Positions 1 through 49,900 of a DNA stretch of 56,547 nt are shown one piece after another. Position numbers and translations under genes: made by a program. This stretch comes from a virus: positions 1-56,547 of IMG/VR virus record IMGVR_UViG_3300010401_000040; one strand, written 5' to 3'. The notes below the pieces were generated by a model. It ran no database searches and was not told where the DNA came from. It saw only the letters and a program-made list of their open reading frames with translations. Positions within the stretch are counted from its first letter, which is position 1, and each line of letters opens with the position of its first letter.

Positions 1-123
1 GCCGAGGCTCTTATTCCTAGCTGGTGGTAGGTGCTCCAACAGGGGCGCCACTCGGCGATCGGTTTGATACCCCGACGCGCCGAGCGATGCCGAAATGCCG
101 CCGCTTCTCCCTTTTTCATTAGA
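1..123. repeat. Terminal direct repeat, left copy (circular assembly overlap)
   Basis: These 123 bases are identical to the last 123 bases of the window. They cover the last codon of the Sak4-like gene and the start of the 84-residue gene. That gene begins inside the repeat and continues without a break across the join, so the repeat most likely marks the overlap of a circular or permuted genome rather than a true packaging repeat. Confidence 0.95.
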
Positions 124-1552
124 ACGGTTTGACGCCTCCCAACTCTTTGCGGAATTGCAGGCAGGACTTGGCGTAGGTGCCCCAACTGTCAGCGACCGTC
201 TTTAAGAGGTCCGGCCTCAGCAGTGCCACCTGGTCCAGGTTATCCACACCGGGCTCCAGGCTCCCCAGGGCTATCAGTGTGGCGATAACCTCCCGCTCAG
301 TGACCTTGTCCGGGTTCTCGCCAATAAACCCGCGAATCCGGGCCAGAGGGGGTAATTCGCCACCGCCCTGGGGCGGAACGGGGGCTCCCTGAGGCGTTTG
401 GACGGCGGGTGGGGTGTTGAGACCAGTCAGATTGGCCTGGCCCGTCTGGGGCAGTTTCTCAAACGGCAGGTCGTCTTCTGTCTCATTACTAGAGACTGGT
501 CCAGGTGTAGCGATACCGAGGTGGGAACGCAACCGGATTAACCCATCGCGCAGCACGTCGGCCTGCATGTTCTCCACTTTGGTCCAGGACCTGGTCCCAA
601 AGATCTGGGAGATGAGGTCAGCCTTTGCCTTCTTCTCGTCGGCTGACTGGCCTGGGTATTTGGAGACAATGTCCCCCATGATCTCCTCGCAAAGGATGGT
701 GCGCTCGCGCCGTTCCCGTTCCCAGCCGGTGTTGCCTTCAATGTCGGCGCCGGTGGTGGTCTTGTTGGTTGTGTCCACCACGCTGTGGGCTCCAGCGCGA
801 AGCATCGCTACGTGCGGCTTGAAGAACTCGAAGGTGGGATTGACCGCCACCTGCCCATCCAGAATGGAGAAGCGATCGCCCAGCACGGTCGCAGTGTGGA
901 TCAGTTTGAAGCCGCCCTGTCCATCCGGCTGTTGGTCGCGTTCCATCTCCACTAGCAGTGAGGGTTCGAAGCCGAATTCACCTTCCACTTTCATTTTGGT
1001 CCCGGCTTTCACCAGTTCCTTGCGGCCACTCTCCTCGTTCTTTTCAAACTCCCAGATGGCCCCGGCTCGACCGCAGACGATCATGTGGAGTGGAGAATTT
1101 AGGAAGAACTCACTCCAGGGCTCCCACATCGCTTTGATGCTTGCCCAGTGTTGGAACTCTAACTTTTGGAGCGGGTAGAGCCGCTTCTCTTTTCGCCGGT
1201 CGTTGAGTTGGGCAAGGTAGGAGTCGCATAGCTCGCGCCAAGGATGCGTAACTGAATCCACAATGGCAACTGAGACACGCTCTTTAAGGCAATCGTTGGC
1301 GAACTCCATGAGGGAGGAGAAAGATCGCGCTCGAACGCCAAGCAGATCCATGCCGGTCTCTTTTCGAACCATCTCCGCCAGATAGCCCGAGCCAGCTTCA
1401 GTGTCATAGAAGGCGATAGGCCCCGGCAGTTTGAAGAACGATCGAACACCGATAGCCAGCTTGGTTGCGGTGTAAGACTTTCCTGATTTTTGGTAGCCGA
1501 GGAACCCGGCTTTGAGGAATCCCTGATCATTGCTTAATTTTGTTAACGGCAT
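119..1552 (-). CDS. Sak4-like RecA-fold ATPase (phage single-strand annealing/recombination)
   Basis: A 477-residue P-loop ATPase. The Walker A motif GYQKSGKS lies at residues 19-26, an acidic FYDTEAG strand near 48-54, and the Walker B strand VAIVDS ends near residue 100 with D99. The RecA-like core spans about residues 10-250. The rest is helical and then a proline/glycine-rich linker, as expected of Sak4/AAA_24 phage ATPases that work in single-strand annealing and recombination-dependent replication. The ATG at 1552 has GAAAGGACA 11 bases upstream, after a short hairpin. The stop codon overlaps the ATG of the next gene (84 residues, across the circular join) as TAATG. The fold is clear from the motifs. 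Assignment to Sak4 rather than another RecA-like phage ATPase is family-level inference. Confidence 0.75.
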   Translation of the reverse strand: MPLTKLSNDQGFLKAGFLGYQKSGKSYTATKLAIGVRSFFKLPGPIAFYDTEAGSGYLAEMVRKETGMDLLGVRARSFSSLMEFANDCLKERVSVAIVDSVTHPWRELCDSYLAQLNDRRKEKRLYPLQKLEFQHWASIKAMWEPWSEFFLNSPLHMIVCGRAGAIWEFEKNEESGRKELVKAGTKMKVEGEFGFEPSLLVEMERDQQPDGQGGFKLIHTATVLGDRFSILDGQVAVNPTFEFFKPHVAMLRAGAHSVVDTTNKTTTGADIEGNTGWERERRERTILCEEIMGDIVSKYPGQSADEKKAKADLISQIFGTRSWTKVENMQADVLRDGLIRLRSHLGIATPGPVSSNETEDDLPFEKLPQTGQANLTGLNTPPAVQTPQGAPVPPQGGGELPPLARIRGFIGENPDKVTEREVIATLIALGSLEPGVDNLDQVALLRPDLLKTVADSWGTYAKSCLQFRKELGGVKPF

Positions 1553-3128: not shown

Positions 3129-3575
3129 TTAGTAGAGCCTGAGGTGCCTGCGTCCGCAGTGACCACAGGTCCGGTTCTCGTCTTTAAGGGCACGACTGAT
3201 CCCGAAGTGGAGACAGTCCGTGCACATGTAGCGCTTGATGCGCTTCAACCGCTGGGCGCCCTTGTCAGTCAGCCGCAGTTTGTAGCCGCCACCCGCCGAG
3301 CTAGCCTGACCAATCGGGATGCTCCGCTCGATTATCCCGTTACGAATGGCGTAGCGGGTAATGCTGCCGATCCAGGTCACCATGTGGCCGCGCACCGTCG
3401 CGCGTCGGCCACGCTGGTTCCTCGGCGATATCTTGCGATAGATGGCGTGCGGTGGGATCATGGCCTCGAAGTTTTCCCACACCTCAAAGACGTGCTTCCA
3501 CTGCTCAGTGCCGATTGACATAACGATCAAGTCCAGCCAGTGGATCTCAGGATCGCGATTCTCACGCTTCTTCAT
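3129..3575 (-). CDS. Zinc-ribbon protein downstream of ParB, 148 residues
   Basis: The C-terminus carries two cysteine pairs, CTDC and CGHC, separated by about 18 residues, a likely zinc ribbon. The preceding segment (GGYKLRLTDKGAQRLKRI) resembles the end of a winged-helix domain. The ATG at 3575 overlaps the ParB stop by 14 bases; an upstream in-frame ATG at 3626 would sit deep inside parB and is not preferred. A DNA- or RNA-binding role is plausible but not shown. Confidence 0.65.
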   Translation of the reverse strand: MKKRENRDPEIHWLDLIVMSIGTEQWKHVFEVWENFEAMIPPHAIYRKISPRNQRGRRATVRGHMVTWIGSITRYAIRNGIIERSIPIGQASSAGGGYKLRLTDKGAQRLKRIKRYMCTDCLHFGISRALKDENRTCGHCGRRHLRLY

Positions 3576-4518
3576 TGGAAAGGGCGTGGAGTTTTTGCTC
3601 CAACGCGCGTTGAAGAACAATTCCACGCTGCCTCTCCGACTCCGACTTGCACCCCATCTGGCGCATGCTTTTCTTATTGCGCAGGAGAATGTCCAGGGTC
3701 TGGAGCATCCGCAGGTAACGCGCCCACAGGCGGTCCTGTTCAGTCCCCTTACTGAGCACCACCTTGGAGCCTGACTTGAGGCCTTGAGCGTATTCCTCGA
3801 TCACACCGATCTGGGCCTTCTCGGAAGCCTTTTCCTCGGTGATGGCATCCACCAGGGCGTGGACCTCGCCGCCTTTCATGCGCTCGCCTTCAGCCAGGCG
3901 CACCGCCCTCTCAACTACTGAGTCGATCGGGATCGTGTTTAACTTCACGATAGAAGTGCGGGGCAGGTTGTCGGCCTTAACTCCCAGGCTTTTGAAGCGC
4001 TGCAGCGCCAGCTTCACACGGTTGTTGACGTGCAAGGTGTGGACGTGGACGCCGAACTTGTCGGCGGCTTCATTGGGTGAGAGTTTGTAAATCGCCATCG
4101 CGTTAATGGCGTCCTGGATTGCCTCCTCTTTCCCTTTTCGCAGGCCGTGCTTGCGGTTGAGTGCCTTGGGCAGGAGATCGATCACCATCGGGTCTTTAGT
4201 CTCCACCACGTAGAAGCCCATGGATTTCTGGTTGAACTCCTCAGCCGCTTTGCGCGTGTGGTTTCCGCCTAGCACCAGGTATTTGCCGGTGCCGGGCTGC
4301 TTAACCGCCACCCCACAGGGGAAGTCATCCCCCGACTCCATGCTGGCCAGGTAGTCAGTGACCACCGTGTCATCCAGCCGCTGGCGCCGGGCGTGGTTGT
4401 TGGAACTCAATTGCTCATCGATCTGGTTGAAGTTTATCTCTTCAACCTCCCACTTGAGGCCCCACTCACGCAGGGTTTTTTCGATTGCATCCGATTTTAA
4501 CCATTGTATCTTTCGCAT
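3562..4518 (-). CDS. parB: ParB/Srx-fold nuclease-like protein (ParB)
   Basis: A 318-residue ParB family protein. The ParB/Srx core holds GGNHTRKAA at residues 84-92, the family phosphate/nucleotide-binding signature. A helix-turn-helix region follows (SPNEAADKFGVHVHTLH). The C-terminal third is charged and helical. The ATG at 4518 is chosen because GAAAGGACA lies 6 bases upstream; a longer frame reaches 4566 but runs through the hairpin at 4538-4581. No ParA ATPase is encoded in the window. It lies directly downstream of the JAMM/ThiF/ubiquitin-like genes, as in PRTRC cassettes where a ParB-related gene accompanies ThiF. The role may be DNA segregation or regulation of the cassette. Confidence 0.9.
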   Translation of the reverse strand: MRKIQWLKSDAIEKTLREWGLKWEVEEINFNQIDEQLSSNNHARRQRLDDTVVTDYLASMESGDDFPCGVAVKQPGTGKYLVLGGNHTRKAAEEFNQKSMGFYVVETKDPMVIDLLPKALNRKHGLRKGKEEAIQDAINAMAIYKLSPNEAADKFGVHVHTLHVNNRVKLALQRFKSLGVKADNLPRTSIVKLNTIPIDSVVERAVRLAEGERMKGGEVHALVDAITEEKASEKAQIGVIEEYAQGLKSGSKVVLSKGTEQDRLWARYLRMLQTLDILLRNKKSMRQMGCKSESERQRGIVLQRALEQKLHALSNEEA

Positions 4519-4537
4519 TGTAACTGTCCTTTCTGCT

Positions 4538-4597: not shown

Positions 4598-5716
4598 CTA
4601 ATCCATCATGTGCCCGTGCCAACCCAGTTGGCGGGCAGCTTCTTCTTCTTCCTCTGCCTTGGTCATCATCCGGCACTCCGCCTGGTAAGAGGCAATGAGC
4701 GGGGTCAAGTCCAGATCGGCGGGCACTTCCTCCCACATCTCCCCGACGCTGACGTCATACTTCTCGATCGCATCCAGCAGCAGCTTGGTGTGGTTCTGGC
4801 CGGTTATGTCTTCAGCCAGTTCGCCAATGAAGTTGGCAACCTGTCGCTGCGCGTTCTCGTTCTGGATTTCAGCACCCAGCACCTCGACAGCGAACATGCC
4901 TACGGCCCGGCGTGCCCGTTGCCAGGCAGGTATCGAATTCGCGTGTGACCGCCATTTGTCTGCACCACCTTGGTAACTGTGCCCCCCTGGGCCATACGAG
5001 CCATACGACGGCGAGCCCGTCGAGACAACCGAGCCGGGAAAGGTGGGTTGTTTAACCTCGATTAGGTTCTCTTTCCACTGGTCCGGGAAACCAGGGATGG
5101 GGTCAGGTTTAGTGGTCATTTGGAATCGCGCCACTTTGTCCCAAAGGTCAATCGGGATGATGCGCGAGATGTTCTCTCCTACATCCCAGAAGCGCGCCAG
5201 GTCGGGCTCAAAGCAGAACCCGCCCAGGTAGAACCGGGCATGCAGGTCGTAACGGGGCGAGCCCAGGCTGCCAATGGTGATGTGCAGCCCGTCGATTTTC
5301 TCCTCGTTGTTCTTGTCGGTGCCCGACTGAAAGGCACTCATTGAACAGTGATGGTGAACGGTGCCAAAGTAGACCCAGCCATCAGCGTCGCTAAACTGCG
5401 CCCGCTGTTTCTTGGTCTCGTCGGTGTCCAGTTCCTCGGCACTCATCCCCGTCTTAGCCTTCTGTGGGAAGGCCCAGGCTGCCCAGCGCCGCTCTTTCAT
5501 ATTAACAAAGAGCCGCACCTGGGACTCGCTGTGGGTGGTGTCGTAGGTCCATTGGAAGAACCTCAGGACCTGGCACCACACCTCGGGATCGATCCGCGGA
5601 CCCAGGTAGGACAATTCCGCTGTGGCGTTCTTAATCTCGTGCTTGAAGTTGCACGAAATTAAACCGGGGAACTGTTTACTGGTCGTTATCTCCGGCTGAT
5701 AGGTGAGTAGTTTCAT
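4598..5716 (-). CDS. JAMM/MPN+ isopeptidase-like metalloprotease (PRTRC protein A-like)
   Basis: A 372-residue protein with a full JAMM motif. E34 (AELSYLG) is the likely general base. H121, H123, S131 and D134 match H-x-H-x7-S-x2-D exactly (HHHCSMSAFQSGTD). Such enzymes remove ubiquitin-like proteins from targets or trim their C-termini using zinc. The MPN domain fills about residues 25-220. The remaining roughly 150 residues form a Gly/Ser/Tyr linker (SYGSYGPGGHS) and a helical C-terminal domain, longer than a minimal JAMM protein. Its ATG overlaps the stop of the upstream 196-residue gene by 4 bases, so it is translationally coupled to the ThiF/E1 operon. A catalytic role is inferred from the intact motif. 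Confidence 0.88.
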   Translation of the reverse strand: MKLLTYQPEITTSKQFPGLISCNFKHEIKNATAELSYLGPRIDPEVWCQVLRFFQWTYDTTHSESQVRLFVNMKERRWAAWAFPQKAKTGMSAEELDTDETKKQRAQFSDADGWVYFGTVHHHCSMSAFQSGTDKNNEEKIDGLHITIGSLGSPRYDLHARFYLGGFCFEPDLARFWDVGENISRIIPIDLWDKVARFQMTTKPDPIPGFPDQWKENLIEVKQPTFPGSVVSTGSPSYGSYGPGGHSYQGGADKWRSHANSIPAWQRARRAVGMFAVEVLGAEIQNENAQRQVANFIGELAEDITGQNHTKLLLDAIEKYDVSVGEMWEEVPADLDLTPLIASYQAECRMMTKAEEEEEAARQLGWHGHMMD

Positions 5717-6303
5717 CGTTCAAACTCTCCTCTCGCGTTAAGGTTGAGCCACGCTCGCAAGCGCAACCGCACCGAGGCGGTGTCGGCTACCGCGCACGCA
5801 TGGTCTTCGGGTTCACCATCGCAATGTTCGTAGGTGTCGTCTCTGCCCTCAGGGTCCATGTCCGGCCAGTCGTTTTCACGGGCGTCCTCGCGCAACTCTT
5901 CAAACACCCTGTTAGCCAGTTCGTCGAAGCCCTCCTGTTCCAACCGCGCCTCTTCGATTATCTGCAACATGCGCGCATTGCTGATGCTCTCTTGCGATGA
6001 GCCACGCCGTGATCGGCTGTAACGACAGTTGCCCGTCTCAATGTCGGTATGGATTATCGTCGCCGTGATGGCGTCGGCTTCATCCACTACCACGCTACTG
6101 GGCTTAAAGTTGGTCTCGATCCAATCTTTAATCTTTTCGTAGGTGTCGGCCTCGGGTGGCACCGGCTTTTTGACCGCGGCTAATACCAGCGCACGGTTGG
6201 TTTCGTTCTGCGGTGCTGCCTGGATCAGCGCTATTACTGAGCCTTTGAGCACCTGCTGTATTTGGCTAAGCCGCTTGGGCTCGGCTAGTTTCTCCATAAC
6301 CAT
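5713..6303 (-). CDS. Unknown acidic protein between E1-like and JAMM genes, 196 residues
   Basis: Unrecognised. The N-terminal half is mixed alpha/beta and the C-terminal half is strongly acidic (EELREDARENDWPDMDPEGRDD). The ATG at 6303 has GAAAGGACA close upstream; a second in-frame ATG at 6297 is possible. It overlaps the end of the ThiF gene by 38 bases and the JAMM gene by 4. Its fixed place between E1 and JAMM suggests an accessory or target subunit of the ubiquitin-like system; equivalence to PRTRC protein E or F cannot be shown here. Confidence 0.75.
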   Translation of the reverse strand: MVMEKLAEPKRLSQIQQVLKGSVIALIQAAPQNETNRALVLAAVKKPVPPEADTYEKIKDWIETNFKPSSVVVDEADAITATIIHTDIETGNCRYSRSRRGSSQESISNARMLQIIEEARLEQEGFDELANRVFEELREDARENDWPDMDPEGRDDTYEHCDGEPEDHACAVADTASVRLRLRAWLNLNARGEFER

Positions 6304-6976
6304 CTGTCCTTTCTAGTGCGTCCTTGATTCGGAAGGACTGCAATTTTGTGAGGTTTGCTACCAGTCGATAGGGGAGTGAGGGCAGCGTCTCACTCTCGAG
6401 TTTAGGCGCCTCCAAATGCCAGAGCACAAAGAGGTGCATAGCTAGTGAAGCGGCCAACGAATTGGCGCTTACTAGCTGCGGGTTTTCTTCCTGGGCCTCG
6501 CCGGTGCAGCCGATAGCTTCCCCCATCGGGTCGCCATCGGTGCCGGTCAGGATCTCTGGGAAGTAGGTTCTCGGGTCCAAGGAACCACCACGCCATTGTG
6601 GCTCGTAGTAGTAGGCCTCAGCCGAGTGTGTTTCATTGGCGGCAATCAGGACCCGGCAGCCGCGCATATCAGCCTCATTCAAGGCCGCGCGCCGTGCCGG
6701 GTGATTGTCCACCAGGGTGATGAGCCAGTCTTCAGGTTGCACCGTGAAGCGGCCCATGGCGAAGTATTCCGGACGCGACATGCAGCCATAGAGGCCAGCC
6801 AAGGCGATTGCCTTGTTCTGGCCCAGGTGCTCACGCCGGAATAACTGACGGTTCAGGTTCTTTTCCTCGAGCCTGTCCCCATCTACCACAACCACCTTTC
6901 GGGGTCCCAGTAGGAGGCATAGGGAGGGAGTAAGCCATGATCCGACGCCGCCTGCGCCGATAACGTAGGCATTCAT
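6266..6976 (-). CDS. ThiF/E1-like ubiquitin-like-protein activating enzyme (PRTRC ThiF family)
   Basis: A 236-residue adenylating enzyme of the E1/ThiF/MoeB superfamily. The Rossmann loop GAGGVG is at residues 7-12. The nucleotide-binding strand VDGDRLEEKNLNRQ (32-44) holds the conserved Asp and the N..RQ signature, followed by K55. LVDN near residue 90 supplies another conserved Asp. C157 in the segment IGCTGEAQEENPQ, just before a C-terminal helix, is in the position of the conserved Cys of PRTRC ThiF proteins and is the best candidate catalytic Cys. There is no CxxC zinc pair. The enzyme should adenylate the C-terminus of the small beta-grasp protein encoded upstream and perhaps form a thioester. 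It is coupled by ATGA to the 152-residue gene. Confidence 0.9.
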   Translation of the reverse strand: MNAYVIGAGGVGSWLTPSLCLLLGPRKVVVVDGDRLEEKNLNRQLFRREHLGQNKAIALAGLYGCMSRPEYFAMGRFTVQPEDWLITLVDNHPARRAALNEADMRGCRVLIAANETHSAEAYYYEPQWRGGSLDPRTYFPEILTGTDGDPMGEAIGCTGEAQEENPQLVSANSLAASLAMHLFVLWHLEAPKLESETLPSLPYRLVANLTKLQSFRIKDALERTDGYGETSRAQAA

Positions 6977-7431
6977 GGTTCTTCTTCCTCCTCCTCAGGC
7001 TCACGATCATCATCAGTCATCGCGATGTTTAACCCGGCAAGCAGTGGGTCCAGCCCCTCGGGTGGTGGGTTAGCAACATCCATTGAGTAGTGACCGCCGT
7101 GGATCATGTCCCAGGTGTTGCGGAACACCTCGCGAACCGGGTCGGCATCACCATTGATTCGCCGGTTGTAGTTGTCTCTGCACTCACAGCAGAGTTGCCT
7201 GAAGGCACGCTCGCTAGCCGAGCCGATCAGTTGGATAGCAAACTCCCGATCGACGATCATCATGTAAGCGGCGATATACTCGTCGATGCAGGCGTTGTGG
7301 TCATTTGGTGAACCAAGAACCAGTTGGCCGTTGGCCTGTTTGTGCAACTTGATTCTCTCAAAGAGGTTGTTGGCGGTGTTACGCAGCTGTGGGCAATCCG
7401 CCAGTGCCTCGAATAGTTCAGGGTGTCTCAT
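6973..7431 (-). CDS. Unknown protein with acidic tail in the ubiquitin-like cassette, 152 residues
   Basis: Unrecognised. Mostly helical, with a CCEC cluster (FRQLCCECRDNY) near the middle and an extremely acidic C-terminus ending in a run of Glu. It sits between the E2-like and E1-like genes with 4-base ATGA overlaps on both sides, so stoichiometric co-translation with them is likely. It may be an adaptor or substrate of the conjugation system (inference from position only). Confidence 0.8.
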   Translation of the reverse strand: MRHPELFEALADCPQLRNTANNLFERIKLHKQANGQLVLGSPNDHNACIDEYIAAYMMIVDREFAIQLIGSASERAFRQLCCECRDNYNRRINGDADPVREVFRNTWDMIHGGHYSMDVANPPPEGLDPLLAGLNIAMTDDDREPEEEEEEP

Positions 7432-8129
7432 ACAACAAGTGCTGAGATGTTGGTGGCCACCTTGGTGCAGTAGGTGGTCCAGGGTTTAGCTGGAGCCATG
7501 GTTTGGAACCCGTCCTTGTTTTGAGTGACCCGGAAGAAGTTCTGAGTCACTTCGACATTACGCCACAGATCGGCGTTGTATTGGGCCTGGTCGAAGTTCT
7601 GGAGGATCTTTGCGACCAGTTCGTGGCTGGTAGGTGCCGCCACTGCATTGCGCAGGCCAGTGCAGCACGAGCAATCCTCATGCACATTGGCAATGGGCAG
7701 GCGCCAGGCAATGCCTTTATCGTCGATGGCAAAGAGCCACGCACCGCCAAAGACTTGATCATTAGCAGCAGTCGACTGCACGCACAAGCGCAGGTTCATC
7801 AGTGGGGCCCAGCCTAAAGGGCTCCAGGTGACGGTCATCACCGGGTCAGTCCCTTGTGATCCGAAGTTGGGCACTAGAATTTGGTTTCCGTTCAAGTGCC
7901 ACGGCGCCCGAATCATCAGGCGGTTTAGTGCGATGGAGTAGATAGTGAGGCCCTGGCCAATGCCCAGGCCGACTTTCATTCCATCAATTTCAAAGACTGC
8001 CGGGGCCTTGAACTTCACATCCCGAGCGATCTTGGTGACCAGGTCGTTTCCGATCGCGACCTCGTATTCATTGATGTCCCTCCGCAAGACGGCTCCGTCG
8101 TTGCGGATGAGATATTCTCTGGTAGGCAT
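7428..8129 (-). CDS. Candidate E2-like protein (PRTRC protein B-like)
   Basis: A 233-residue protein encoded between the ubiquitin-like and E1 genes. Residues 70-110 give strands with WHLNG and VPNFG; residues 128-160 give a strand (GGAWLFAIDD) then WRLPIANVHEDCSCCTG. The last segment, with H150 and a C153/C155/C156 cluster, resembles the P-N-V-x-G-x-x-C active-site strip of E2-like PRTRC B proteins. Length and gene position also fit that family. The ATG at 8129 has GGAAAGGACA upstream, and the stop overlaps the next ATG. The E2 assignment rests on this local pattern plus context and needs profile or structural confirmation. Alternatively it is an unrelated cysteine-containing cassette protein. 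Confidence 0.6.
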   Translation of the reverse strand: MPTREYLIRNDGAVLRRDINEYEVAIGNDLVTKIARDVKFKAPAVFEIDGMKVGLGIGQGLTIYSIALNRLMIRAPWHLNGNQILVPNFGSQGTDPVMTVTWSPLGWAPLMNLRLCVQSTAANDQVFGGAWLFAIDDKGIAWRLPIANVHEDCSCCTGLRNAVAAPTSHELVAKILQNFDQAQYNADLWRNVEVTQNFFRVTQNKDGFQTMAPAKPWTTYCTKVATNISALVV

Positions 8130-8151
8130 ATGTTGTCCTTTCCAAACGAAA

Positions 8152-8181
8152 GTCTCCCACCCCTTCTACGGAGTGGGAGAC
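8152..8181 (-). promoter_or_regulatory. Hairpin between ubiquitin-like and E2-like genes
   Basis: GTCTCCCAC and GTGGGAGAC form a perfect 9-bp stem with a 12-base loop, just upstream of the GAAAGGACA site of the E2-like gene. It abuts the palindrome at 8182-8201. Confidence 0.6.
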
Positions 8182-8201
8182 AATCGTTAGGCCTAACGAT
8201 T
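8182..8201. repeat. 20-bp perfect palindrome overlapping the ubiquitin-like stop codon
   Basis: AATCGTTAGG is followed directly by its reverse complement CCTAACGATT. The palindrome includes part of the TAA stop of the ubiquitin-like gene. It could be a hairpin with no loop, an operator, or a ParB-binding (parS-like) site. No second copy was noticed in the window. Confidence 0.6.
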
Positions 8202-8421
8202 AGGCAGCTTTCTGGTTGCACCGGGTCTCAAAGACCACAGTGGCCCCGTTGGGGACCTCGACGTCGCTGCCCATCTCTACGCCGTTGATCAATGCACGGA
8301 CGTTGTCGCCCATGCCGAACACGGCCTTCACGTTGGAGTCACTGATCAGCTGTCCGATCTTGGTGCCCTCAGACACGGTTTTGGTGAGGGTCTCTACTCC
8401 GTAACGCAGTGTTACTTGCAT
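8200..8421 (-). CDS. Beta-grasp ubiquitin-like protein (PRTRC protein C-like)
   Basis: A 73-residue protein that reads as a minimal beta-grasp fold: strand (MQVTLRYGV), strand (LTKTV), helix (KIGQLISDSNVKAVF), strand (VRALINGVEM), then VPNGATVVFETR. The VNG/ING turn followed by a D-x-L/V-x-x-G-x-V strand is typical of ThiS/MoaD/ubiquitin-like proteins. The ATG at 8421 is preferred because GAAAGGACA lies upstream; a longer frame would extend through the leader. The C-terminus is CNQKAA, not Gly-Gly. It is the first gene of the cassette and the likely substrate of the ThiF/E1 enzyme. Confidence 0.78.
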   Translation of the reverse strand: MQVTLRYGVETLTKTVSEGTKIGQLISDSNVKAVFGMGDNVRALINGVEMGSDVEVPNGATVVFETRCNQKAA

Positions 8422-13346: not shown

Positions 13347-13489
13347 AACATCGGTCCAATTAGCGCCCCAAAGGAGCCCAGCAGCATTAGAATTGTCCCA
13401 ATCCACCGGTGCCCGTCGTGGTAGAGACCGTAGCCGATCATCACCACAGCCAGGCTCCAGATCAGGATTAAGAAGTTCCGCTTGCTCAT
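13343..13489 (-). CDS. Small membrane protein, 48 residues
   Basis: Two hydrophobic segments (FLILIWSLAVVMIGYGL and IGTILMLLGSFGALIGPML) separated by a short polar turn give a likely hairpin in the membrane. The ATG at 13489 overlaps the GroES-like stop as ATGA. Function unknown; holin-like size but no further evidence. Confidence 0.6.
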   Translation of the reverse strand: MSKRNFLILIWSLAVVMIGYGLYHDGHRWIGTILMLLGSFGALIGPML

Positions 13490-13758
13490 CGCGGTATCAC
13501 CAGCGAGAGGCTCGACTCCTGCACGAGCCACATGTCGTTGCCCGCCTCGACTTTGGAATTGATTCGAAACTGGTCGAGGACCGCCAGTGCCCCTGGCGTT
13601 ATGGCCGGGTCGCACTTGGGACCGACGGCAATAACGACGTAATCGATCGCCCCGCGGCTGTAGGGGTCGTAGGTCTCGGGGAACATTATCCCGCCGTCGG
13701 ACTTAGCTTTGGGCGGCAACTGCCCCAGGAGGACATTGTGGCCGGTTGGTCGGATCAT
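13486..13758 (-). CDS. GroES-like co-chaperonin
   Basis: A 90-residue protein that follows the GroES layout: IRPTGHNVLL at the start, a mobile-loop region with GGIMFPET, a central VVIAVGP, then strands ending SSLSLVI. Like T4 gp31, it could cap the host GroEL to fold phage proteins such as the capsid protein. The match to GroES in the mobile loop and the AVGP strand is visible by eye. The start is set at 13758 (MIRPTG); the frame is open further upstream. It overlaps the dehydratase gene by 56 bases. Confidence 0.72.
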   Translation of the reverse strand: MIRPTGHNVLLGQLPPKAKSDGGIMFPETYDPYSRGAIDYVVIAVGPKCDPAITPGALAVLDQFRINSKVEAGNDMWLVQESSLSLVIPR

Positions 13759-14791
13759 AGTGCACAAACTCACGTATTTGGTTAATGGTGAACTCCCGCA
13801 TGGACTCGTTCTTCTCAACATGACGCGCGATATACCAGTCTGCCGCTGCCCTCACAGCGGTCTTGGTGTCGTAACGAGGGGCCCATCCCAGTTTCTCCTT
13901 GGCCTTATCTGAACAGAGTGAAAGTGATCGGTCTTCCGGACAAATCTCGTCCCTCTTTAAGAGCGAGCAACCCAGTCTTCCGGGCCATCGTTCCTTGAAT
14001 TGGAGCGCCACCATGTAAACCTGAGCTAAGGGGCCGTCGGGCCCGAAGTTGAAGGCCTCGGGAATAAAATTCTCTCCCAGTTTCAGGTAGCCACAGATGC
14101 AATCCAGGACGTGCTGCCAGGGCCGCAAGTAAAACGGCTGGCGCAAGTCGACGTCCTTGCCTTCAGAGAAGGCCCGAAAGCAATCCGGGATCAACCGGTT
14201 CACTGCGTAGTCACCGCCGCCGATCACATTACCGGCGCGCGCGGTGGAGACGTTTAGTCCGTAGCTGTGGCGGTAGGCATCGCAGGCCAATTCCGCGGCC
14301 ACCTTGCTCATTGAGTAGGGGGTAGACCAGGAGAAATCGTCGGTCTCCTCGCAATTCTGGACGTGGGCGTCGTAGACCTTGTCGGTCGTTATTACCACCA
14401 CGGGAATCTTCAGCTTATGCCGACGCACCGACTCAAGGACACTCAAGGTCCCCATCGTATTGGTCTCAATCGTCGAGAGGGGAGATTCGAAGGCCTCACT
14501 CACGATCGGCTGGCCCGCCAGGTGGAAGATAATGTCGGGCATCACCTCCTCGATCTGGTAATAGACCGCGGCCAGGACGCGAACATCCATCCAGCCGTCG
14601 CGCTCAAAGGTCCCCTGCCCAATCACTTCAAATAGATTTGGTGAGGGGAACGGCGGGTGGGAGATCCCATAGACCCTGGCGCCAAGTTGGTTCAACCATA
14701 GCGAGAGCCATCCTCCCTTGAACCCTGTATGGCCCGTTACCATGACCTTTTTGCCCTCGTAGAAGCCGTTAAATAGGTCGAGCTCCCTCAT
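13703..14791 (-). CDS. rfbG: CDP-glucose 4,6-dehydratase-like NDP-sugar dehydratase
   Basis: A 362-residue short-chain dehydrogenase/reductase. The NAD-binding GHTGFKG is at residues 20-26 (GxxGxxG), TTDKVY at 135-140, and the catalytic YSMSK at 159-163. The sequence pattern (FKGGWL, LAGQPIVSEAFESP, STPYSMSK, GNVIGGGDYA) matches RfbG-type enzymes, which convert CDP-glucose to the 4-keto-6-deoxy sugar. It probably feeds glycan modification together with the glycosyltransferases encoded from 16193. It is on the opposite strand from those genes. Confidence 0.85.
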   Translation of the reverse strand: MRELDLFNGFYEGKKVMVTGHTGFKGGWLSLWLNQLGARVYGISHPPFPSPNLFEVIGQGTFERDGWMDVRVLAAVYYQIEEVMPDIIFHLAGQPIVSEAFESPLSTIETNTMGTLSVLESVRRHKLKIPVVVITTDKVYDAHVQNCEETDDFSWSTPYSMSKVAAELACDAYRHSYGLNVSTARAGNVIGGGDYAVNRLIPDCFRAFSEGKDVDLRQPFYLRPWQHVLDCICGYLKLGENFIPEAFNFGPDGPLAQVYMVALQFKERWPGRLGCSLLKRDEICPEDRSLSLCSDKAKEKLGWAPRYDTKTAVRAAADWYIARHVEKNESMREFTINQIREFVHYDPTNRPQCPPGAVAAQS

Positions 14792-17846: not shown

Positions 17847-17880
17847 GATGCTATGTATTGTGATTTTTTAGAATAACTTA
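17845..17880 (+). promoter_or_regulatory. Promoter abutting the start codon (possible leaderless mRNA)
   Basis: TTGATG (17845-17850), an 18-base AT-rich spacer, TAGAAT (17869-17874). The start codon of the next gene is at 17880, where transcription would be expected to begin, and no Shine-Dalgarno sequence is present. Confidence 0.5.
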
Positions 17881-18641
17881 TGACTACTCTTGGCGGAAAT
17901 ATCTGCATACGAAACGGGTTCCGGCTGGACTACTGCTGGCGTGAAACGGTCAAGTCGCTCCTGGAGGTGTGCGATAAGGTGGTCATTTGCGACTGCGATT
18001 CAGACGACGGGACACGCAAATGGATCGACGACTGGGCAGCGACTGAGTCGCGGATTGTCCCGGTCAACTTTCCCTGGACCAACCCCGAGCGCACCAACCA
18101 ATGGTGGCCCGAGTGGATCAATTACTCGCGGCAGCACCTGGACACCGACATGCACCTGCAGCTGGACGCCGACGAGCTAATCCACCCCGAGGACCACGAG
18201 CAAATACGCAATGCGCGCGACGCCAAGGCGACGCTCTACTTCCAGAGGCTCAACTTCTGGTCGGACCCCAAGCACTTGATACCGGAAGGCTATTGCTGCG
18301 GCACAAAGGTCCTCAAAATGGCCCCGGCCAATATGCCCATCCCGAGTGATTACCCCTACGAACCGGCTAACTCGACCTGCGCCCAGGCGGTCGATTCGAA
18401 CATCCGGGTATTCCACTACGGCTTTATCCGGCACCGCGAGCAGTTCTTTGAGAAGGCCAGGGAAGTCCACCGCATCTGGAGCGGCGCCATGGACGAGCGC
18501 CTGGCGCGCGCTGAAAAGTTTGAAGGCAACTGGGCGACCATGCCGGGAGTAACCGGCTGGGAAGATCGCATCGTTGACTACACGGGAAACCATCCGCCAC
18601 TCATTCACCAGTGGCTAAGAGAGAGGGGATATGAAATATAA
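17880..18641 (+). CDS. GT2-like glycosyltransferase, 253 residues
   Basis: A GT-A fold. The first strand is followed by VVICDCDSDDGT (nucleotide-binding) and the metal-binding LDADE is near residue 100. The overall pattern matches the small 'glycosyltransferase family 2' proteins found in polysaccharide loci. It overlaps the methyltransferase gene by 11 bases, suggesting that glycan transfer and methylation are co-produced. Confidence 0.8.
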   Translation: MTTLGGNICIRNGFRLDYCWRETVKSLLEVCDKVVICDCDSDDGTRKWIDDWAATESRIVPVNFPWTNPERTNQWWPEWINYSRQHLDTDMHLQLDADELIHPEDHEQIRNARDAKATLYFQRLNFWSDPKHLIPEGYCCGTKVLKMAPANMPIPSDYPYEPANSTCAQAVDSNIRVFHYGFIRHREQFFEKAREVHRIWSGAMDERLARAEKFEGNWATMPGVTGWEDRIVDYTGNHPPLIHQWLRERGYEI

Positions 18642-19158
18642 GTCGCACGTCCGCGTTGCCAAAGATATCTGCTTTACCTGGACTGAAGATGAGGTGCTCA
18701 ACTATCTATGCGAGCTAGCCTCTAACTCCAGGGTGATGGTTGAGTCGGGAACCTACATGGGAGCCAGCGCCTACGCGATGCTCTCCGCCGCCCCGCGCGA
18801 CGCGCACCTGTGGTGCATCGACAAGTTCATGGTGCCCGGCACCGAGCACGTCACACGGCGCAACCTCAAGTTCTGGATCGACCACGGCCAGTGCGAACTG
18901 ATCATTGGCGATTCGGAGCGCGGCGCCGACATGTTGAAACACATGCTCGGACAAGTGGACCTGATCTTTGTTGACGACGGCCACGCCGAAGAGGACGTGA
19001 TGCGCGACATTCGCTGCCTCCAGCCGCTCCTTAAGCGCGGCGGCATTATGGTCGGCCACGACTTCGACGTCCCGCACAACGACGTGGCCCGTGGGGTGAT
19101 TCGCAGCGGCATCCCTTACGACGTTCCCATTCCCAGGCTCTGGCGCTACATCCGGTGA
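18631..19158 (+). CDS. Class I SAM-dependent methyltransferase
   Basis: A 175-residue methyltransferase of the Methyltransf_24 type. The SAM-binding loop VESGTYMGASA is near residues 37-47, the acidic WCIDKF strand near 61-66, and the catalytic-face motif IFVDDGH near 111-117. Within the glycosyltransferase cluster it most likely methylates a sugar or glycopeptide. Confidence 0.8.
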   Translation: MKYKSHVRVAKDICFTWTEDEVLNYLCELASNSRVMVESGTYMGASAYAMLSAAPRDAHLWCIDKFMVPGTEHVTRRNLKFWIDHGQCELIIGDSERGADMLKHMLGQVDLIFVDDGHAEEDVMRDIRCLQPLLKRGGIMVGHDFDVPHNDVARGVIRSGIPYDVPIPRLWRYIR

Positions 19159-26593: not shown

Positions 26594-28096
26594 ATGAGTT
26601 GCCCAACAGGCGTAATTCAAGCGTGCGATTTCGGCCAGTTCATGGTTGACCAGACGCCGCGCTTCGATGAGTTGATCATGGAGGATATTCGTCCTACCGA
26701 TGGTTGGCTCTATAACATCTCCACCGGCACGACCCCCATGGGGACACCGGTGCAAATCACCCAGGATAGGTTCCGCTCGGTTTGGCCGAACACCACCAAG
26801 AAGTGGAATCAGGTGGTAGCTAACGGCCCCGGTTGCAGCGGTAACCCTTGCGACCTTACCGAGAACCAAATCGGCTGGGGCGCGGATCGGCTGACCTACT
26901 TTGCCGAGCAACAGACCTGGGGCACCCCGCTCATCTGCTACGACCAGGACATGCACATCACGCATGCTGAGCAGCACATCGCCCAGATCATCAACGAAAT
27001 CCTTCGACCGGCGACGACGGCCATCTCGAGCAACTTCCTGCGCAAGCGCGCCCTGCAATGGGCCCGTTTCAAATACCAGGCGGCTTCCGGACTGCCGCAG
27101 TTCACTTTCCAGTGGACGCTCGGTGGCGCTAACCTGGACGAGGAAATCTATTTTGATTGCTCGGCCAACCCCAACCAGGTGTTCCTCTTAGCCCCGCAGA
27201 TGCTGCAGAGCCAGTTCTCTCCGCTGATGCGTAACGGCTACGGTGGCAAGAACCCCTTCAAGGACACGGCCCCTTTCATCGAGCTCGTGACCGACATGGA
27301 CACCTGCTGGCTGCTCGACAAACTCGGCGGCGCTCAGGGCCAAGGCGGAGTTCCCTCGGTCAGCGGCAACTGGCGCTTCACTGAATGGAGCGCGGCCAAT
27401 GAGTATTGGCGCTATGGCTTCTCTGGCCAGGTCGGCAACTTCATGGTGCGCGTCGACGAGATGGGACTGCGGTTCAACTTCGTCCAGGACATGGGTGCCT
27501 CGGCCAACGGCGGCAATGGCAACCGTTACCGCTACCAGATCGTTCTGCCCTACCGCAACGGCGTAACCTCGGGCGCAGGCGGCGCCTCGGGTATCGGCTC
27601 CTTCGAGAACCCCGACTACGACGCTGCCCAATTCCGGCTCTCCTTCATCATGCACAAAAAGGGCATGGAATTGCTGGTGCCGGATGCCCGCCCGCTCAAC
27701 CCGGAGATGCCTTTCGGTCACCGCGATTTCGGTGGCAAGTGGCGGTTTGCGATGCACGACCTGGGGGCTGACTCCAACGGTGTCGCCATCACCAACAAGT
27801 GGGAAAACAAAGGTCAGTTCATCTCATGGTTCAAATACTATGTGCGACCTCTCCACTACGAATTCATGCAAGCCTGGTTCCACAAGAGCGAGCAGCAATG
27901 CATCCCGAACATCAATACGTGCCACGCCGATCCCGGCTACCCGGCGCAGTATTACAATTCGGCGCTGCCGACCTGCCCGTTGCCCGCTGGCTTTGTCCCG
28001 GCTGGCACCACGACACCTCCAGCTCTGCCTCCGGGCAGCGCAGTGGCGGGAACATTCCCGGTCGACTCATTCGCACCGGAGACTCCGAACCAATAA
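26594..28096 (+). CDS. Major capsid protein (predicted)
   Basis: A 500-residue protein directly after the scaffold and terminator. Composition is even and beta-rich, with a Gly/Ala patch (GAGGASGIGSF) and unusually many Cys (GCSGNPCDLT; CIPNINTC). The C-terminal about 40 residues are Pro/Ala/Thr-rich, a possible decoration or linker. It has its own leader and is followed by a strong hairpin, in line with high expression. The fold is inferred from position and size. Confidence 0.72.
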   Translation: MSCPTGVIQACDFGQFMVDQTPRFDELIMEDIRPTDGWLYNISTGTTPMGTPVQITQDRFRSVWPNTTKKWNQVVANGPGCSGNPCDLTENQIGWGADRLTYFAEQQTWGTPLICYDQDMHITHAEQHIAQIINEILRPATTAISSNFLRKRALQWARFKYQAASGLPQFTFQWTLGGANLDEEIYFDCSANPNQVFLLAPQMLQSQFSPLMRNGYGGKNPFKDTAPFIELVTDMDTCWLLDKLGGAQGQGGVPSVSGNWRFTEWSAANEYWRYGFSGQVGNFMVRVDEMGLRFNFVQDMGASANGGNGNRYRYQIVLPYRNGVTSGAGGASGIGSFENPDYDAAQFRLSFIMHKKGMELLVPDARPLNPEMPFGHRDFGGKWRFAMHDLGADSNGVAITNKWENKGQFISWFKYYVRPLHYEFMQAWFHKSEQQCIPNINTCHADPGYPAQYYNSALPTCPLPAGFVPAGTTTPPALPPGSAVAGTFPVDSFAPETPNQ

Positions 28097-43925: not shown

Positions 43926-46900
43926 GTGCCGACTTTTGAAGCCGAATTGTCTGATGGCCGGGTTGTAACAGTTGAGTCCGATCATGAGCCAACTGAAAAA
44001 GAAATCCTATCGGCGGTCGGCAGCCAAGGCGCGGCGCCACAAGAGAACCAAGCGCAAGATCCAACCTCGGCAGTTGGTGCCGGACTACGGTCCGCGGCTG
44101 AAGGCATTGCACCAGGCGCAGCTGCGGCGGCGGCGTTTGCACCGTCTGCGGCGGTTGGGGCTCCTTTTGCGCCAGAAACGTTCGGAATTGCGCCGCTTGC
44201 TACTGGGGTCGTAGGTTCGGCCCTGGCGGGTGGCGCGGTAGCACTGGGACAGCGGAAGCTGCTGGAGTATCTGGCTCCGGGATTTCTGCAGAAACTGGAG
44301 CAGGGTCAGAAGGAACACCCGCTAGCTTCCGGAGTGGGTCGAGTCGCCTCGGCCCTGCCCAGTTTTGAGTTTTCCCCCGGTCAGACCATTCGCGGCGTTG
44401 CGGCCCTGCCTAAGATCATCAGAGGCACCGCCGAGGCCGCTGAGAAGAAGGCTGCCACTTCGCTTGCCGCCCAGATTGGTGCGCAGACTGGCATCACTGC
44501 CGCCCAGACCGGCGTCCTGGAACACCGGCTGCCCACACCGACCGAGTTGCTGGAGGCTGCCGCTACCGCCGCTACGTTCGGCCACCCGAGATTTTCCTTC
44601 CCCATACCGCAATCACTACAACGACCATATGCCCGCCAAAACCAAGAAGCAGCAGCGCTACATGGGAATGTGCGCTCACAGCAAGAATCCACCGGCCAGT
44701 TGCCCGCCCAAGAAGGTGGCGCGGGAGTTCAGCCACGCCCCGAAAAGCTGGCCAAAGCAACACAAATACCACTGAGCGGTGCTGAGCCACCACCGGTCGC
44801 CGGTCAGGGCATCCCGCGGATCACCGGCACCGACGAGCTAGGTTATACCCTTCACTTCCAGGGCAAGAGCGAGGCTGGGTTCCCTAGCCGCGCTGAGGCC
44901 GAGAAGGCGGCCCAAGAGATCTGGGATGGCGTTCGACCCATGGCCGGGGACGTCAGTGACGACCTGGCTGAGAAGATGGAACGCGAGGCCATCAGCGAAG
45001 GCGAGAGGCAGGGTGCCCCAGTTAAGTCCGTGGAGAAGTTCGGAGACGAGGACGCCAACGTCCCCTTCAGCCCGTTCTTTATGAAGGCGACGGGGACCGG
45101 TGTTGAACTGAAACGCTCCACCTTCCGCGAGTGGATTCAGGACCTGGTCAACGACGGATTGAATGAGGACCAGATCCGGTTGGCAGTCCACAGCCGCATT
45201 GGTGAGGAGAAATTCCACAACGACGTGATGGCGGTGGCCAGCGATAAGGAGATCGCCCAATACTCCCAGGACCTTACCGCCGCCGAGAAGGCGATCGAGC
45301 GCCGCATCTATGGCGTGCGCAACCTGACCGACCTGCAGCTGGGACACGAGGCGATACGCCGCCGGTTGCAGCAGGCTCACGGCATGACGCCCAGCGAGTT
45401 TGCTGAGACTGTGGGCAAGGAGCACGTCACTATCCGAACGTTGGACGCACTAGGCCGAATCATCCGACGTTCGCGTGAGGCGTTGGGGACCAAGGCGGCG
45501 GGACGCCAGGGAGTGCTCTACAAACGCGCACTGACTAATATTGAGTATGCCAAAGCGGCGGTCTCGGGACGCCAACAGCCCGGCGCAGCCAGGCGTGAGC
45601 GAGAGACAACTCCACCTGAGTTAGCTGACCTGGAGGGGGCAAGGAAGGTTCCACTAAACCTTGGATCTTCCGAATATTTCAAACTGATAGACCAGATGGA
45701 GAAGCGAGGTGTGTCCGTTGACGGATCTCCCCTGAAGCGAGAGGACATGCCTGCGTTTTACGAGGCTGCTGAGGAGATACTTCTCAATGGATACGACTAC
45801 GCCCTTGAGATGGCTAGGGTCCAGGCCGATAACTACCCAACGGAGCCTACTCCTCAAGGAAACTCCACCCGAGATCTTGTCCACGCGATCGAACTGCTCA
45901 AAGGAAAGGACGTCAGGCTCGGCCCACTCATCCCATTCCCTGGATGGAAGAGCGAGACTCAGTTGCGGCTGGATTTGCCGAGTGCCGCGCGCCGCCGCAA
46001 AGACGAGCCCGGCCAGGGCGAGATGTTCGGCAAGCAACCACTCTCAGCCCCGCGCCTGATTAAGGCCAGCGACCCCGAGGCCCGGAAGATTCCCGAAGGC
46101 ACCACGCTGCCGCAGTATAACGCGAACCAGATTGCTGAGATGGCCCAGCGCGTGCTCCAGAGCGAGAAGCCCAGCTTCCGTTCCTTCTACGGATGGGCCC
46201 GGCGCAACCTCGGAGACGTGCCTACTGGACCGATGTTCAGTGTCTGGATTGATGCGGTAAATAATAACCTCCAAGGAAAGCCTGGCGCTGAACTCAATAA
46301 GATGGTGGAGCAGCTGGGGCTCCAGCACCGGGTCTACCCGTTCCAGAAACGTGTTGGCACTAAGCCGCTGGAGGGCACCTCGACTGAGTTTACGCCTGAG
46401 CAACTGAAGGCTGCTGGTCCCCTGCCGGGCGTCGTTTACAATCGCGTTGATATCCCCGACAGCCAGGCCGTGCCGCATGACCCGCGTGATCTGCCGCCGC
46501 AGATGGTGACCGACATTCGCAAGGGGGTTGAAGAGAAGTGGAAGAAAGAGAACCTGCTCCAGGATGAGCGGCTGATTGAGGCTGAGAAGAATAAGGCGGT
46601 GGAGCAGGCCCGAAAGGATTTCATGAAGGCCTTCCCGCCTGAGTTGCGGGACGCGATCATTGACCGTCGCGAGGCCATCAAGCGGGGCCAGAAGCTGCGC
46701 ATGAAGGCCATCAGCGCCATTTTCCAGAAGCTGATTGAGGAGGGCTACCCTGACACCTCCGACCTGTTACGCAAGGAGATTGCAATCGACGACCTGGACT
46801 GGTCCAACCCCAACGCCAAGGAAGGCGTGTGGCGGGATATCAGAGGCGATGAGGCTAAGAACGTTGATAAGCTAAACGAAATTTTCAGGGACGAGGCGCG

Positions 46901-49900
46901 CCGCTCCAGCTTTGACAACGTGAGCCACACCAAGCGCGTGGCGGTCATGCTGAACAAAAACGACAGCACCGTTGCCATTGTCTCAGCCTATCCCCACGGT
47001 CGAAGTGGCACCATGGTCTTTGAACCCTCTGGTGCTACCGGAATAAAGGGTAAGCCCAGCGTCCCGATTGGTTCGGTGCTGCACCGCTGGCGCCCGATCG
47101 CCTCGATGCTGCTCAAGGAGCCGGTGAAGGACTTCTATAAGAAGTTCGAGAACATCGAGAAATTCAACGACTACATCGGCAAGGCCGCCCAGGAAACCGA
47201 GCGCAGCTTTAGCTATGACCCAATAGGGGAGGAGCCTGGTGAGCATTGGCGCAATGTGCCCGAGTGGTTGCGTTCCGACTACGAGTCAGGCCAGATCGCC
47301 CACTCCGCTACGGACGTCCAGCTGGATGAGTTGAAGGCGATGGCTGCTGAGGCAGGTGTCCGCGAGCAGGACGTTGTCTCCCAAGGGGGAGAGACCACAG
47401 AGCGCTTTGGCACCATGGTCACCGAGCCGGGTAAGGGTATTGAGTATGAGCGGCGTGGCGGGCAACTCACCAAAGACAACCCGCTCTCTACGCGCGAGGC
47501 GCTGGAGTTGCAGGACTTCATCTTGGATGAAGCACCCGCAATACGATCCAAGGAAGACCTATCCAAAGTGATTGAAGAGTTGGCCAGCCGGGCTCAGACC
47601 GGAAGATTAAAGCCGCGCGAGTGGCTGGCAATATCGGCCCTGCGCAAGGCAGCCAGCGAAACCTACGTCCGCGAGAACGCCAAGGTCCGGGCATTGCGCT
47701 CCGAACTGCGTGGCAGGAACCTGCCTGCGGACATACCTTATATCAGCCGTGAAACAGCCTACAAAATTGCCCTCGACCGGTTCTACGACCTCACGCAAAG
47801 CACCGAAACGCGCGCCGACTTCCTCGCTGGAGCCATGGAACAATTCAGCCGCCCAGCTGCTGAGGCTCGAGTCCAAGCGCCCGGTATTCCGGTCACGTCA
47901 CCCAGTGCGAAAGGCGTCAGTCGCGAACTGACGATGCGGTCGCGCAGGCCTCCGACCTCCACCAACTGGCAAGGGCCACCGTTGCCGACTGGAGAGGCTC
48001 GCACTGAGCCTGCCGATCCCGAACTGCTTTCTCCTGAAGGCCAGGAACTGGCACGCAAACGCGCTGAGGCCCAGTTCCCTTACGAGCCCACCGAAGGCGA
48101 GCCGCCTGAGTTCAAACTGCCAACTGGGAAAGGTGAGGTGGTTCAGTATCGCAGCCGTCCTGGGTTCCTGATGAAACGCACTGGTGCTGAGGGTGGCTAC
48201 ACCCTGGGCCCGCTGGAGCGCCGCAGGCTGCCTGGTGCTGCCATTCGTGGCGCGGAGAATGTTCGCCAGCGCTGGGAGGAGATGCGCGAGTATAGCACCA
48301 AATACACGGCGCAACTGACCCGCTCCAACACGATGCGGGATATCAATTCCACCGCCGATGGCGCCGACCGCCAGGTGGAGACTTATTCCAATCGCGCGTC
48401 CAACGACATTCGGCTCGCGTCAGTGAAACCCTCCGAGCAGCCGCGCAAGGCGACGCTCAAGGAACGGTTGCTGGGCGGGGTTATCCACTCACCAGAAGCC
48501 GTGAAGGTGCGCAAGGCTGCTAAGGCGGTCATGGCCGCACTGCAGATTGCCACCGACGAAGAGTGGATTCGGGTCTACAACGAGCGCCAGGCACTCAAGG
48601 CTGAGTTTGAACCGTTATTCGAAGAGGCCGAGCGGCAGCACAAGAAGCGGCCTGTTATCCCTGAGGAACGCAAGCCGAAGTTCAAGCAGCCTGAGTGGGT
48701 GGAGGCCAAGCATTTCGAGAAGCTGATCGCTCAGGCCGACAAAGCCATCCGCGAGTCTGACGATTGGATGAAGGCCGTTAACCCCATCCGCCGCATCCAG
48801 GGGCGCAAGTGGAACCGCGCAGCCAGGGCGCTCAAAGAGGAAGCCCTCTACGCCCAGGAGCACTACAACGACCCGGAGATGCTGGCGACCGTCAGCACCT
48901 ACCAGTCGATCATGGACGCGCACTTGAACAACATGAACCGGTCCGGGTTCAAGATTCAGGGGCGCGACTTCTACGTGCCAGGCCGCTACGACGGGGAGAT
49001 CTGGAACGACTACCGATTGACCTGGGGCGACATGAGGATACTGGGCCGGAACTACCGGATGCCAAAATCCTTCCGAAATTATTACGAAGCAATTTCCAAC
49101 GGGCCCTACATTCCAGCCAACGGCGATATTGCCGACCTGGCCCAGCACTCCCTGGCCGCCGGTGGCCGCGTGATGATGCGCGATATCTGGCTGCGCGGGC
49201 TAAAGGAATTCACTGACCCGGTCAGCAAGCAACCGGTGGCTATTGAGCCGCAGTGGACTCGAGTCTCCGATTCGAAAGTGGACCCTGAAAAGATCCAGTC
49301 ACTCAACCCGGAACTCCAGCCGGTGTTTGAGGAACTGAACAACTTGATCGCGACACACGACCCCGATTCCCGGACTGGCAAAGAGGCGCGCAGGCGGCTT
49401 GAGTCTTTCCAGAAGGCGCTGGCCGCAGGCAGTCACTTTGAGTGGCAGGTCCCCAAGGGTAAGCTGGAATACAGCCTGGTTCATCCTTCCCATAGCTCGA
49501 AGCCGATCGCCGTGCGTGAGGGTTACAAGGCGGCAGTGGAGTCAGCAATGGCCCGCAGCGTGATTCACGATATCCCCGTCCTGGGTGATGCCCTGCGCGT
49601 ATCACAGATGTTGAAGCACGGGCTCATCCTGATCATGGACACCTTCCATCCCGGACGCCTGGCGCAATACGGTGCCGCCCTGGCGGGGAAGAACATCTGG
49701 GACATACAAAAGCCGGGGTTCCATTCCGGGCTGCATGCGCTGATGTATAACCCCGAGTCGCTGGAGCACGCGGTGAAGATTGGGGCGGTGAGCAAGAAGG
49801 CCGCAGACTGGGCCTTGGAGCCGGTGAAACTCTACGACCGTGGCCGTATCATGCGGATGAGTCGGCAGAAGCTGCTGGATTACCTGGTGAAGAATGGGCT

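Follow-up and report, generated by a model that had tools for sequence, protein, structure and literature searches.

Operons encoding components of ubiquitin-like conjugation were predicted from sequence in 2006, and the class of interest here was described as combining a ubiquitin-like protein (Ubl) with a C-terminal glycine, a JAB-N domain, an alpha-helical partner and an E2 with a downstream histidine (Iyer et al., PMC1779556). By its content, the PRTRC system (ParB-related, ThiF-related cassette), which comprises the plasmid proteins A, B, C, ThiF, ParB, E and F, corresponds to operon class 6d, whose E2 has an absolutely conserved histidine downstream of the cysteine (PMC1779556). No function for this operon class was found in the literature covered, which excludes recent papers on the bacterial Bil and Bub systems. 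Here we describe a cassette of six minus-strand genes in the IMG/VR virus record IMGVR_UViG_3300010401_000040, whose 56.5 kb, analysed as a whole, are called the window. The cassette encodes a Ubl, a candidate E2-like conjugating enzyme, a ThiF-like E1 activating enzyme, a JAMM metalloprotease and two accessory proteins (U152 and U196). Judged from sequence, it probably gives a family of phages a complete pathway for reversible ubiquitin-like conjugation. A sequence-only reading of the window had proposed that a phage carries this full set, and the core of the proposal was supported, with strong co-conservation among 21 contigs.

Layout and co-conservation of the cassette

The features of the cassette are as follows:

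8200-8421, minus strand: Ubl, ubiquitin-like modifier of 73 residues, predicted beta-grasp (AlphaFold2, Foldseek, alignment)
8152-8181, minus strand: terminator-like 12-bp hairpin between the Ubl and E2 genes, candidate attenuator (folding)
7428-8129, minus strand: candidate E2-like conjugating enzyme of 233 residues, PRTRC-B/Prok-E2_D-like (hhalign, Pfam, invariant residues)
6973-7431, minus strand: U152, fast-evolving accessory protein and possible adaptor, between E2 and E1 (position and homology)
6266-6976, minus strand: ThiF-like E1 of 236 residues, putative catalytic Cys157 in GCTGEAQ (Pfam, hhalign, invariant residues)
5713-6303, minus strand: U196, acidic accessory protein between E1 and JAMM (homologues at the same position)
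4598-5716, minus strand: JAMM/MPN+ metalloprotease of 372 residues, proposed to process and deconjugate the Ubl (Prok-JAB, hhalign, invariant residues)

All six open reading frames were confirmed with their earlier assigned lengths. Pfam, PHROGs and NCBIfam gave no usable annotation for the window's Ubl, E2, U152 and U196. Neighbouring genes overlap by 4 nt at three junctions and by 38 nt between ThiF and U196; the only gap, of 70 nt, separates Ubl from E2 and contains the hairpin, so that the earlier description of six coupled genes holds for five of them. A strong stem was present in all 18 Ubl-E2 intergenic regions folded (z −2.6 to −7.3; −6.1 in the window). The stems are dissimilar in sequence and often have a U tract. 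The hairpin may act as an attenuator, so that more tag than enzyme is made.

A scan of viral contigs with the single ThiF sequence gave no match, and JAMM, then alignment profiles, were needed to find relatives. The JAMM search returned two, and the E1-profile search returned 21 viral contigs (L004-L024) of 27-72 kb with a nearly full-length E1 match, besides weaker, partial matches outside this set. Among 50,697 phage records, JAMM and the major virion-type protein of the window had no match at the limits used. The cassette is uncut in 19 of the 21 contigs, and its order is always Ubl, E2, U152, ThiF/E1, U196, JAMM; in the other two it is cut by contig ends (L004 begins inside the E2 gene, L018 stops in or beyond the E1 gene). 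The lowest identities to the window are 40% for ThiF, 27% for JAMM, about 33% for Ubl and 14% for E2, with active-site residues unchanged. Since the same gene order is kept even where the E1s of relatives share no more than about 40% identity, the cassette is, on sequence comparison, not a chance array. That the genes persist as an inactive or structural remnant that conjugates nothing is extremely improbable: a truncated JAMM frame in contig L078, from a metagenome-assembled genome (MAG), would fit such decay, but the catalytic residues are invariant in intact copies at low overall identity. All four profiles also match in MAG contig L079, which was outside the profiles (Ubl 2.7e-9, E2 8.6e-15, ThiF 6.9e-57, JAMM 1.8e-43) and has Ubl, JAMM, E1 and E2 in a different gene order.

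The 500-residue major virion-type protein (window 26594-28096) has counterparts of 66-90% identity in 15 relatives; in the remaining six of the 21, which keep the cassette wholly or partly, it was not found, and the cassette therefore spans different phage backbones. A search with this protein returned ten more contigs, none with an E1 or JAMM match; as a control, the E1 search detected 4/4 known positives and 0/6 long contigs. Six contigs with the virion-type protein, 40-56 kb long, show no match to any of the cassette genes, and their entire early arm is different. Some of them are fragments, but one, G030, has the virion-type gene split across its ends, as expected for a circular genome. 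The cassette genes thus appear to come and go together, all or none.

Contigs with the cassette turned up in MAG bins (two of Verrucomicrobia, one of Geobacteraceae and one of Cloacimonadota) and are possibly misbinned phage. The Verrucomicrobia contig L078 (528-2344) has an intact E1 and a JAMM frame that leaves the family after the HxH...S motif; this piece is possibly a decayed prophage, an assembly error or a hint at the host. HNH-like endonuclease genes, recognised by eye, lie between the E1 and U196 genes in L003 (8126-9328), L022 (10726-11577) and L023 (10762-11868), and resemble homing endonucleases inserted in conserved phage genes.

Relation of the proteins to PRTRC and other systems

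The 73-residue protein had been read as a beta-grasp protein, and structure prediction agrees: the AlphaFold2 model has a predicted local distance difference test score (pLDDT) of 89.2, and Foldseek retrieved ubiquitin, NEDD8 and Bacteroides BfUbb with a template modelling score of about 0.74 (E 1.5e-4). The tail of the window's Ubl reads ...ETRCNQKAA. In an alignment of 22 domains the core end ET.AN.KA is conserved and is followed by 0 to about 30 variable residues, the exceptions being L008, which ends KNN, L015, which ends KQN, and L020, with Q for N. A K-G ending was seen only in L079, where both Ubls end HDKG, and a C-terminal GG is not present in the phage Ubls of the alignment. Tandem di-Ubls are encoded in L003/L018/L019, L020, L022, L023 and L079. 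Variable tails and tandem Ubls both indicate that the modifier is cut by a protease, and JAMM is the candidate for this step. In PRTRC-C the usual ending is GxKG. The phage Ubl resembles PRTRC-C in its ubiquitin fold and its K-A or K-G tail, but hhalign did not match the two profiles.

The E1 matches Pfam ThiF at 3.7e-13, and its motifs GAGGVG and NLNRQ with C157 are complete, as are those of JAMM (H121xH123x7S131x2D134), in line with the sequence-only reading. Among 21 aligned E1 sequences G7, G9, G10, G12, D32, D34, N40, R43, Q44, K55 and C157 are invariant. Single-sequence comparisons gave 6.6e-8 for MoeB and 4.8e-10 for ThiF. Against PRTRC reference alignments, built from 5 to 11 plasmids, hhalign aligned the E1 with PRTRC ThiF at 2e-21 over 179 columns, Cys region included; mismatched control pairs gave E-values of 0.2 or more. 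In the E1 tree the phage proteins are a single clade (100/99), separate from that of PRTRC; the phage, PRTRC, Bacillus and Nostoc E1s group away from E. coli ThiF, MoeB and TcdA (100/98). The tree bears on the idea that the cassette is a sulfur-carrier pathway of ThiS/MoaD type, in which sulfur would reach a small molecule or tRNA by way of E1 and Ubl, and JAMM would mature the carrier. E1-like proteins serve such pathways elsewhere, and the L020 Ubl matches Pfam ThiS at 4e-4. The grouping of the phage E1s with those of PRTRC, the E2-like protein with its invariant cysteine in the aligned cassettes, the missing C-terminal GG and the lack of a rhodanese or other sulfurtransferase gene in the cassette make this idea highly improbable.

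Prok-JAB was matched by 13 of 21 JAMM members, in whose aligned sequences E64, H121, H123, S131 and D134 are invariant, and hhalign to PRTRC-A gave 1.1e-5. DUF2016 (JAB-N) was matched by none of the 21, whereas both PRTRC-A references tested do match it. Homologues of U196 occupy the corresponding place in the cassettes. U152 has a homologue or positional counterpart in most of them and no family match; its profile misses L015 and L016, so it is the least certain member. Assignment of U152 and U196 to PRTRC E and F was rejected (hhalign E 0.78 or more).

The 233-residue protein carries the motif P145..N148.......C156.G158 with Cys156 as putative catalytic residue; P145, N148, C156, G158 and W102 are invariant in the aligned cassettes. 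Its profile matches PRTRC-B (hhalign E 3.1e-7), and Prok-E2_D (PF14460) is the sole recurrent Pfam match of the family (12 of 19 members, best 3e-4). These matches support its identity as an E2-like protein, while the fold, modelled at pLDDT 85 and matched in BFVD by uncharacterised phage proteins only, is a candidate ubiquitin-conjugating (UBC) fold. The earlier E2 claim thus stands at the profile level and was not confirmed by structure search. No conserved histidine follows the Cys in the phage E2 alignment, whereas PRTRC-B has the nearly invariant H188. An Interfer-bind match (0.0041) was rejected as a chance match of one member.

The likeness to PRTRC thus consists of a small beta-grasp Ubl, an E2 of E2-D type, a JAB protein with HxH...AFxSxTD and a stand-alone E1 with its Cys in the C-terminal half, in a compact operon on mobile DNA that is sometimes near DNA-processing genes. 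The phage cassette differs in that ParB, E and F of PRTRC type are missing, DUF2016 is not matched, the E2 has no downstream histidine, the Ubl mostly ends K-A instead of K-G, the gene order is different and the E1s form a clade of their own. The PRTRC match suggested by the sequence-only reading therefore extends to ThiF, B and A, but not to ParB, E/F or the PRTRC-C profile. Profiles and tree together indicate that the cassette is PRTRC-like in logic, yet a separate variant and not a PRTRC member.

Two plasmids, pAD3 of B. velezensis (L063) and pNPM2 of Nostoc (L065), encode comparable sets: tandem or tailed Ubls ending ..TKG and ..KKG, E2 motifs PNIGVSHGICWG and PNVYSSGQVCWG, respectively, JAMM with HSHxxxxAFFSxTD, and an E1. 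On pAD3 (L063 967-1704) a tetra-ubiquitin-like protein, whose four repeats all end in AGTKG, adjoins the E2_D, JAMM and E1 genes, and the Nostoc Ubl has a GKKG ending plus a tail. Apart from their plasmid location, these sets differ in their E1s, which group with PRTRC, outside the phage clade.

The bacterial Bil/Bub systems and Cap2 of the cyclic-oligonucleotide-based antiphage signalling system (CBASS) share the E1/E2/protease logic, and in the PDB the phage E1 profile matches BubCD at 4e-8 and Cap2 at 6e-7. The phage genes differ from them in having no specific family match, in not being fused and in their genomic context. Bil tags phage tail proteins, and since its component classes (Ubl, E1, E2, JAB) are those of the phage cassette, the latter could serve superinfection exclusion or inter-phage defence by tagging virion proteins of competing phages. 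We regard this as distinctly improbable: defence-system E1/E2 models of PADLOC matched only about residues 2-61, the nucleotide-binding region, NCBIfam models stayed below every cut-off, and a recombination-module location is atypical of exclusion genes.

The lambda-type tail proteins I and K are also a phage-borne Ubl and JAB pair (PMC1779556); they lack an E1 or E2 and lie in the tail module, unlike the phage cassette in its early/recombination arm. A candidate counterpart is carried by the Bacteroides phage crAss001 (NC_049977). Its gp79-gp76 genes (L119 477-4148, L120 228-905), near Sak4, primase and helicase genes, encode an N-terminus that is beta-grasp-like by eye (gp79), an E2-D-like motif PINNFENFQTPCTG found by motif and eye (gp78), a JAMM motif HSHNNMATFFSGTD with a Prok-JAB match of 4.9e-4, below the cut-off (gp77), and a ThiF E1 (gp76, 8e-16). 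The E2 and Ubl profiles had no match in gp78/gp79. crAss001 is thus a possible case of a diverged Ubl-E2-JAMM-E1 cassette in a cultured phage.

Proposed pathway and its genomic setting

In the pathway that we propose, many transcripts would end at the hairpin after the Ubl gene, so that Ubl is made in excess of the enzymes. JAMM would trim the Ubl, or split the di-Ubl, after N-x-K-A (K-G in one relative) to give the mature C-terminus, which the E1 would adenylate and take onto Cys157. Transfer to Cys156 of the E2-like protein would follow, and E2, with U152 and U196 as possible adaptors, would attach the Ubl to targets, from which JAMM could remove it again. Two further features of the window define the setting:

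3562-4521, minus strand: ParB-like protein, downstream of the cassette (PHROG ParB E 0.11)
119-1552, minus strand: Sak4-type AAA_24 ATPase, recombination neighbour (phrog_1366 8e-34; Pfam AAA_24 6.7e-4, below cut-off)

Counted over the window plus the 20 loci in which JAMM is present, 19 of 21 cassettes have a single-strand annealing gene within about 4 kb downstream of JAMM. Nine are RecT, four Mgm101/Rad52-like and six Sak4 AAA_24; representatives were typed with Pfam, the remaining genes from their BLAST clusters. Some PRTRC plasmids likewise have dnaN, exonuclease or SSB genes nearby. Because the cassette sits in a recombination module, which is a modest basis, DNA replication and recombination proteins of phage or host appear the likeliest targets; that the targets are indeed DNA-metabolism proteins is a tentative proposal, held at somewhat below even confidence. 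As a whole, a conjugation pathway with such targets is the best explanation of the data, and we consider it reasonably probable.

Several points weigh against it. The Ubl core ends K-A (K-N/K-Q in L008/L015) and not in glycine, which is unusual for an adenylated modifier. Foldseek with the E2 model found no E2 structure and no solved match in the PDB, and the family has neither the classical HPN histidine nor that of the plasmid E2s. The hhalign E-values are single-pair comparisons, not corrected for database size, and absence of the cassette from some structural relatives may reflect fragment contigs. Gene neighbourhood says little about targets, and no annealing recombinase is in reach in L013 or L020, which have a tyrosine-recombinase-like gene (by eye) instead.

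The same setting would also suit a conjugation pathway for counter-defence or host takeover, in which host defence, transcription or protease proteins are tagged early in infection. Location in the early/DNA-metabolism arm and presence in some phages with absence from structural relatives, as for many accessory host-interaction genes, fit this reading. It is nevertheless rather unlikely, as gene order and invariant residues are kept across diverged backbones, unlike in most anti-defence genes, and the neighbourhood is similar in kind to that of plasmid PRTRC, for which we know of no host takeover.

The cassette could also define a phage-specific class of complete conjugation pathways, marked by tags that end K-A and may occur in tandem and by attenuation of the tag gene, which would modify replication/recombination proteins during infection and extend in diverged form to crAss-like phages; we put this forward as a possibility that falls short of an even chance. 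The conserved Ubl-E2 hairpin, the tandem di-tags and the adjacent annealing recombinases are new here, relative to a comparison that did not extend to the recent Bil/Bub literature, where the phage cassette may have been described earlier. If the pathway is real, protein conjugation joins what phages encode. A viral cassette strongly conserved beside annealing recombinases offers a defined setting for finding substrates, and the crAss001 candidate could make the pathway testable in a real infection. That the terminal glycine is usually missing would, if confirmed, widen the range of tails that E1 enzymes are known to activate.

Other genes near the cassette

The sequence-only reading had placed parB directly after the six genes and compared the set with PRTRC. 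That the ParB-like gene belongs to the cassette was rejected: a homologue occurs in 1 of 21 relatives, no Pfam ParB_N match was found, and hhalign to PRTRC ParB gave 1%. Different ParB-like proteins with a DGQHR/INGQHT motif (by eye), unrelated by BLAST to that of the window, are encoded near the cassettes of L002 (3572-4573), L016 (11677-12624) and L008 (10629-11555). A 2419-residue open frame (window 43926-51185) has no Pfam match. Genes for GroES-like co-chaperonins were recognised by eye at window 13486-13821 and at L079 7770-8159, shortly after the L079 E2 gene. The window also has a sugar-nucleotide dehydratase-like gene (13703-14791, by eye) and glycosyltransferase and methyltransferase genes (17880-18641 and 18631-19158), and these three genes probably form a surface-sugar or glycosylation module.

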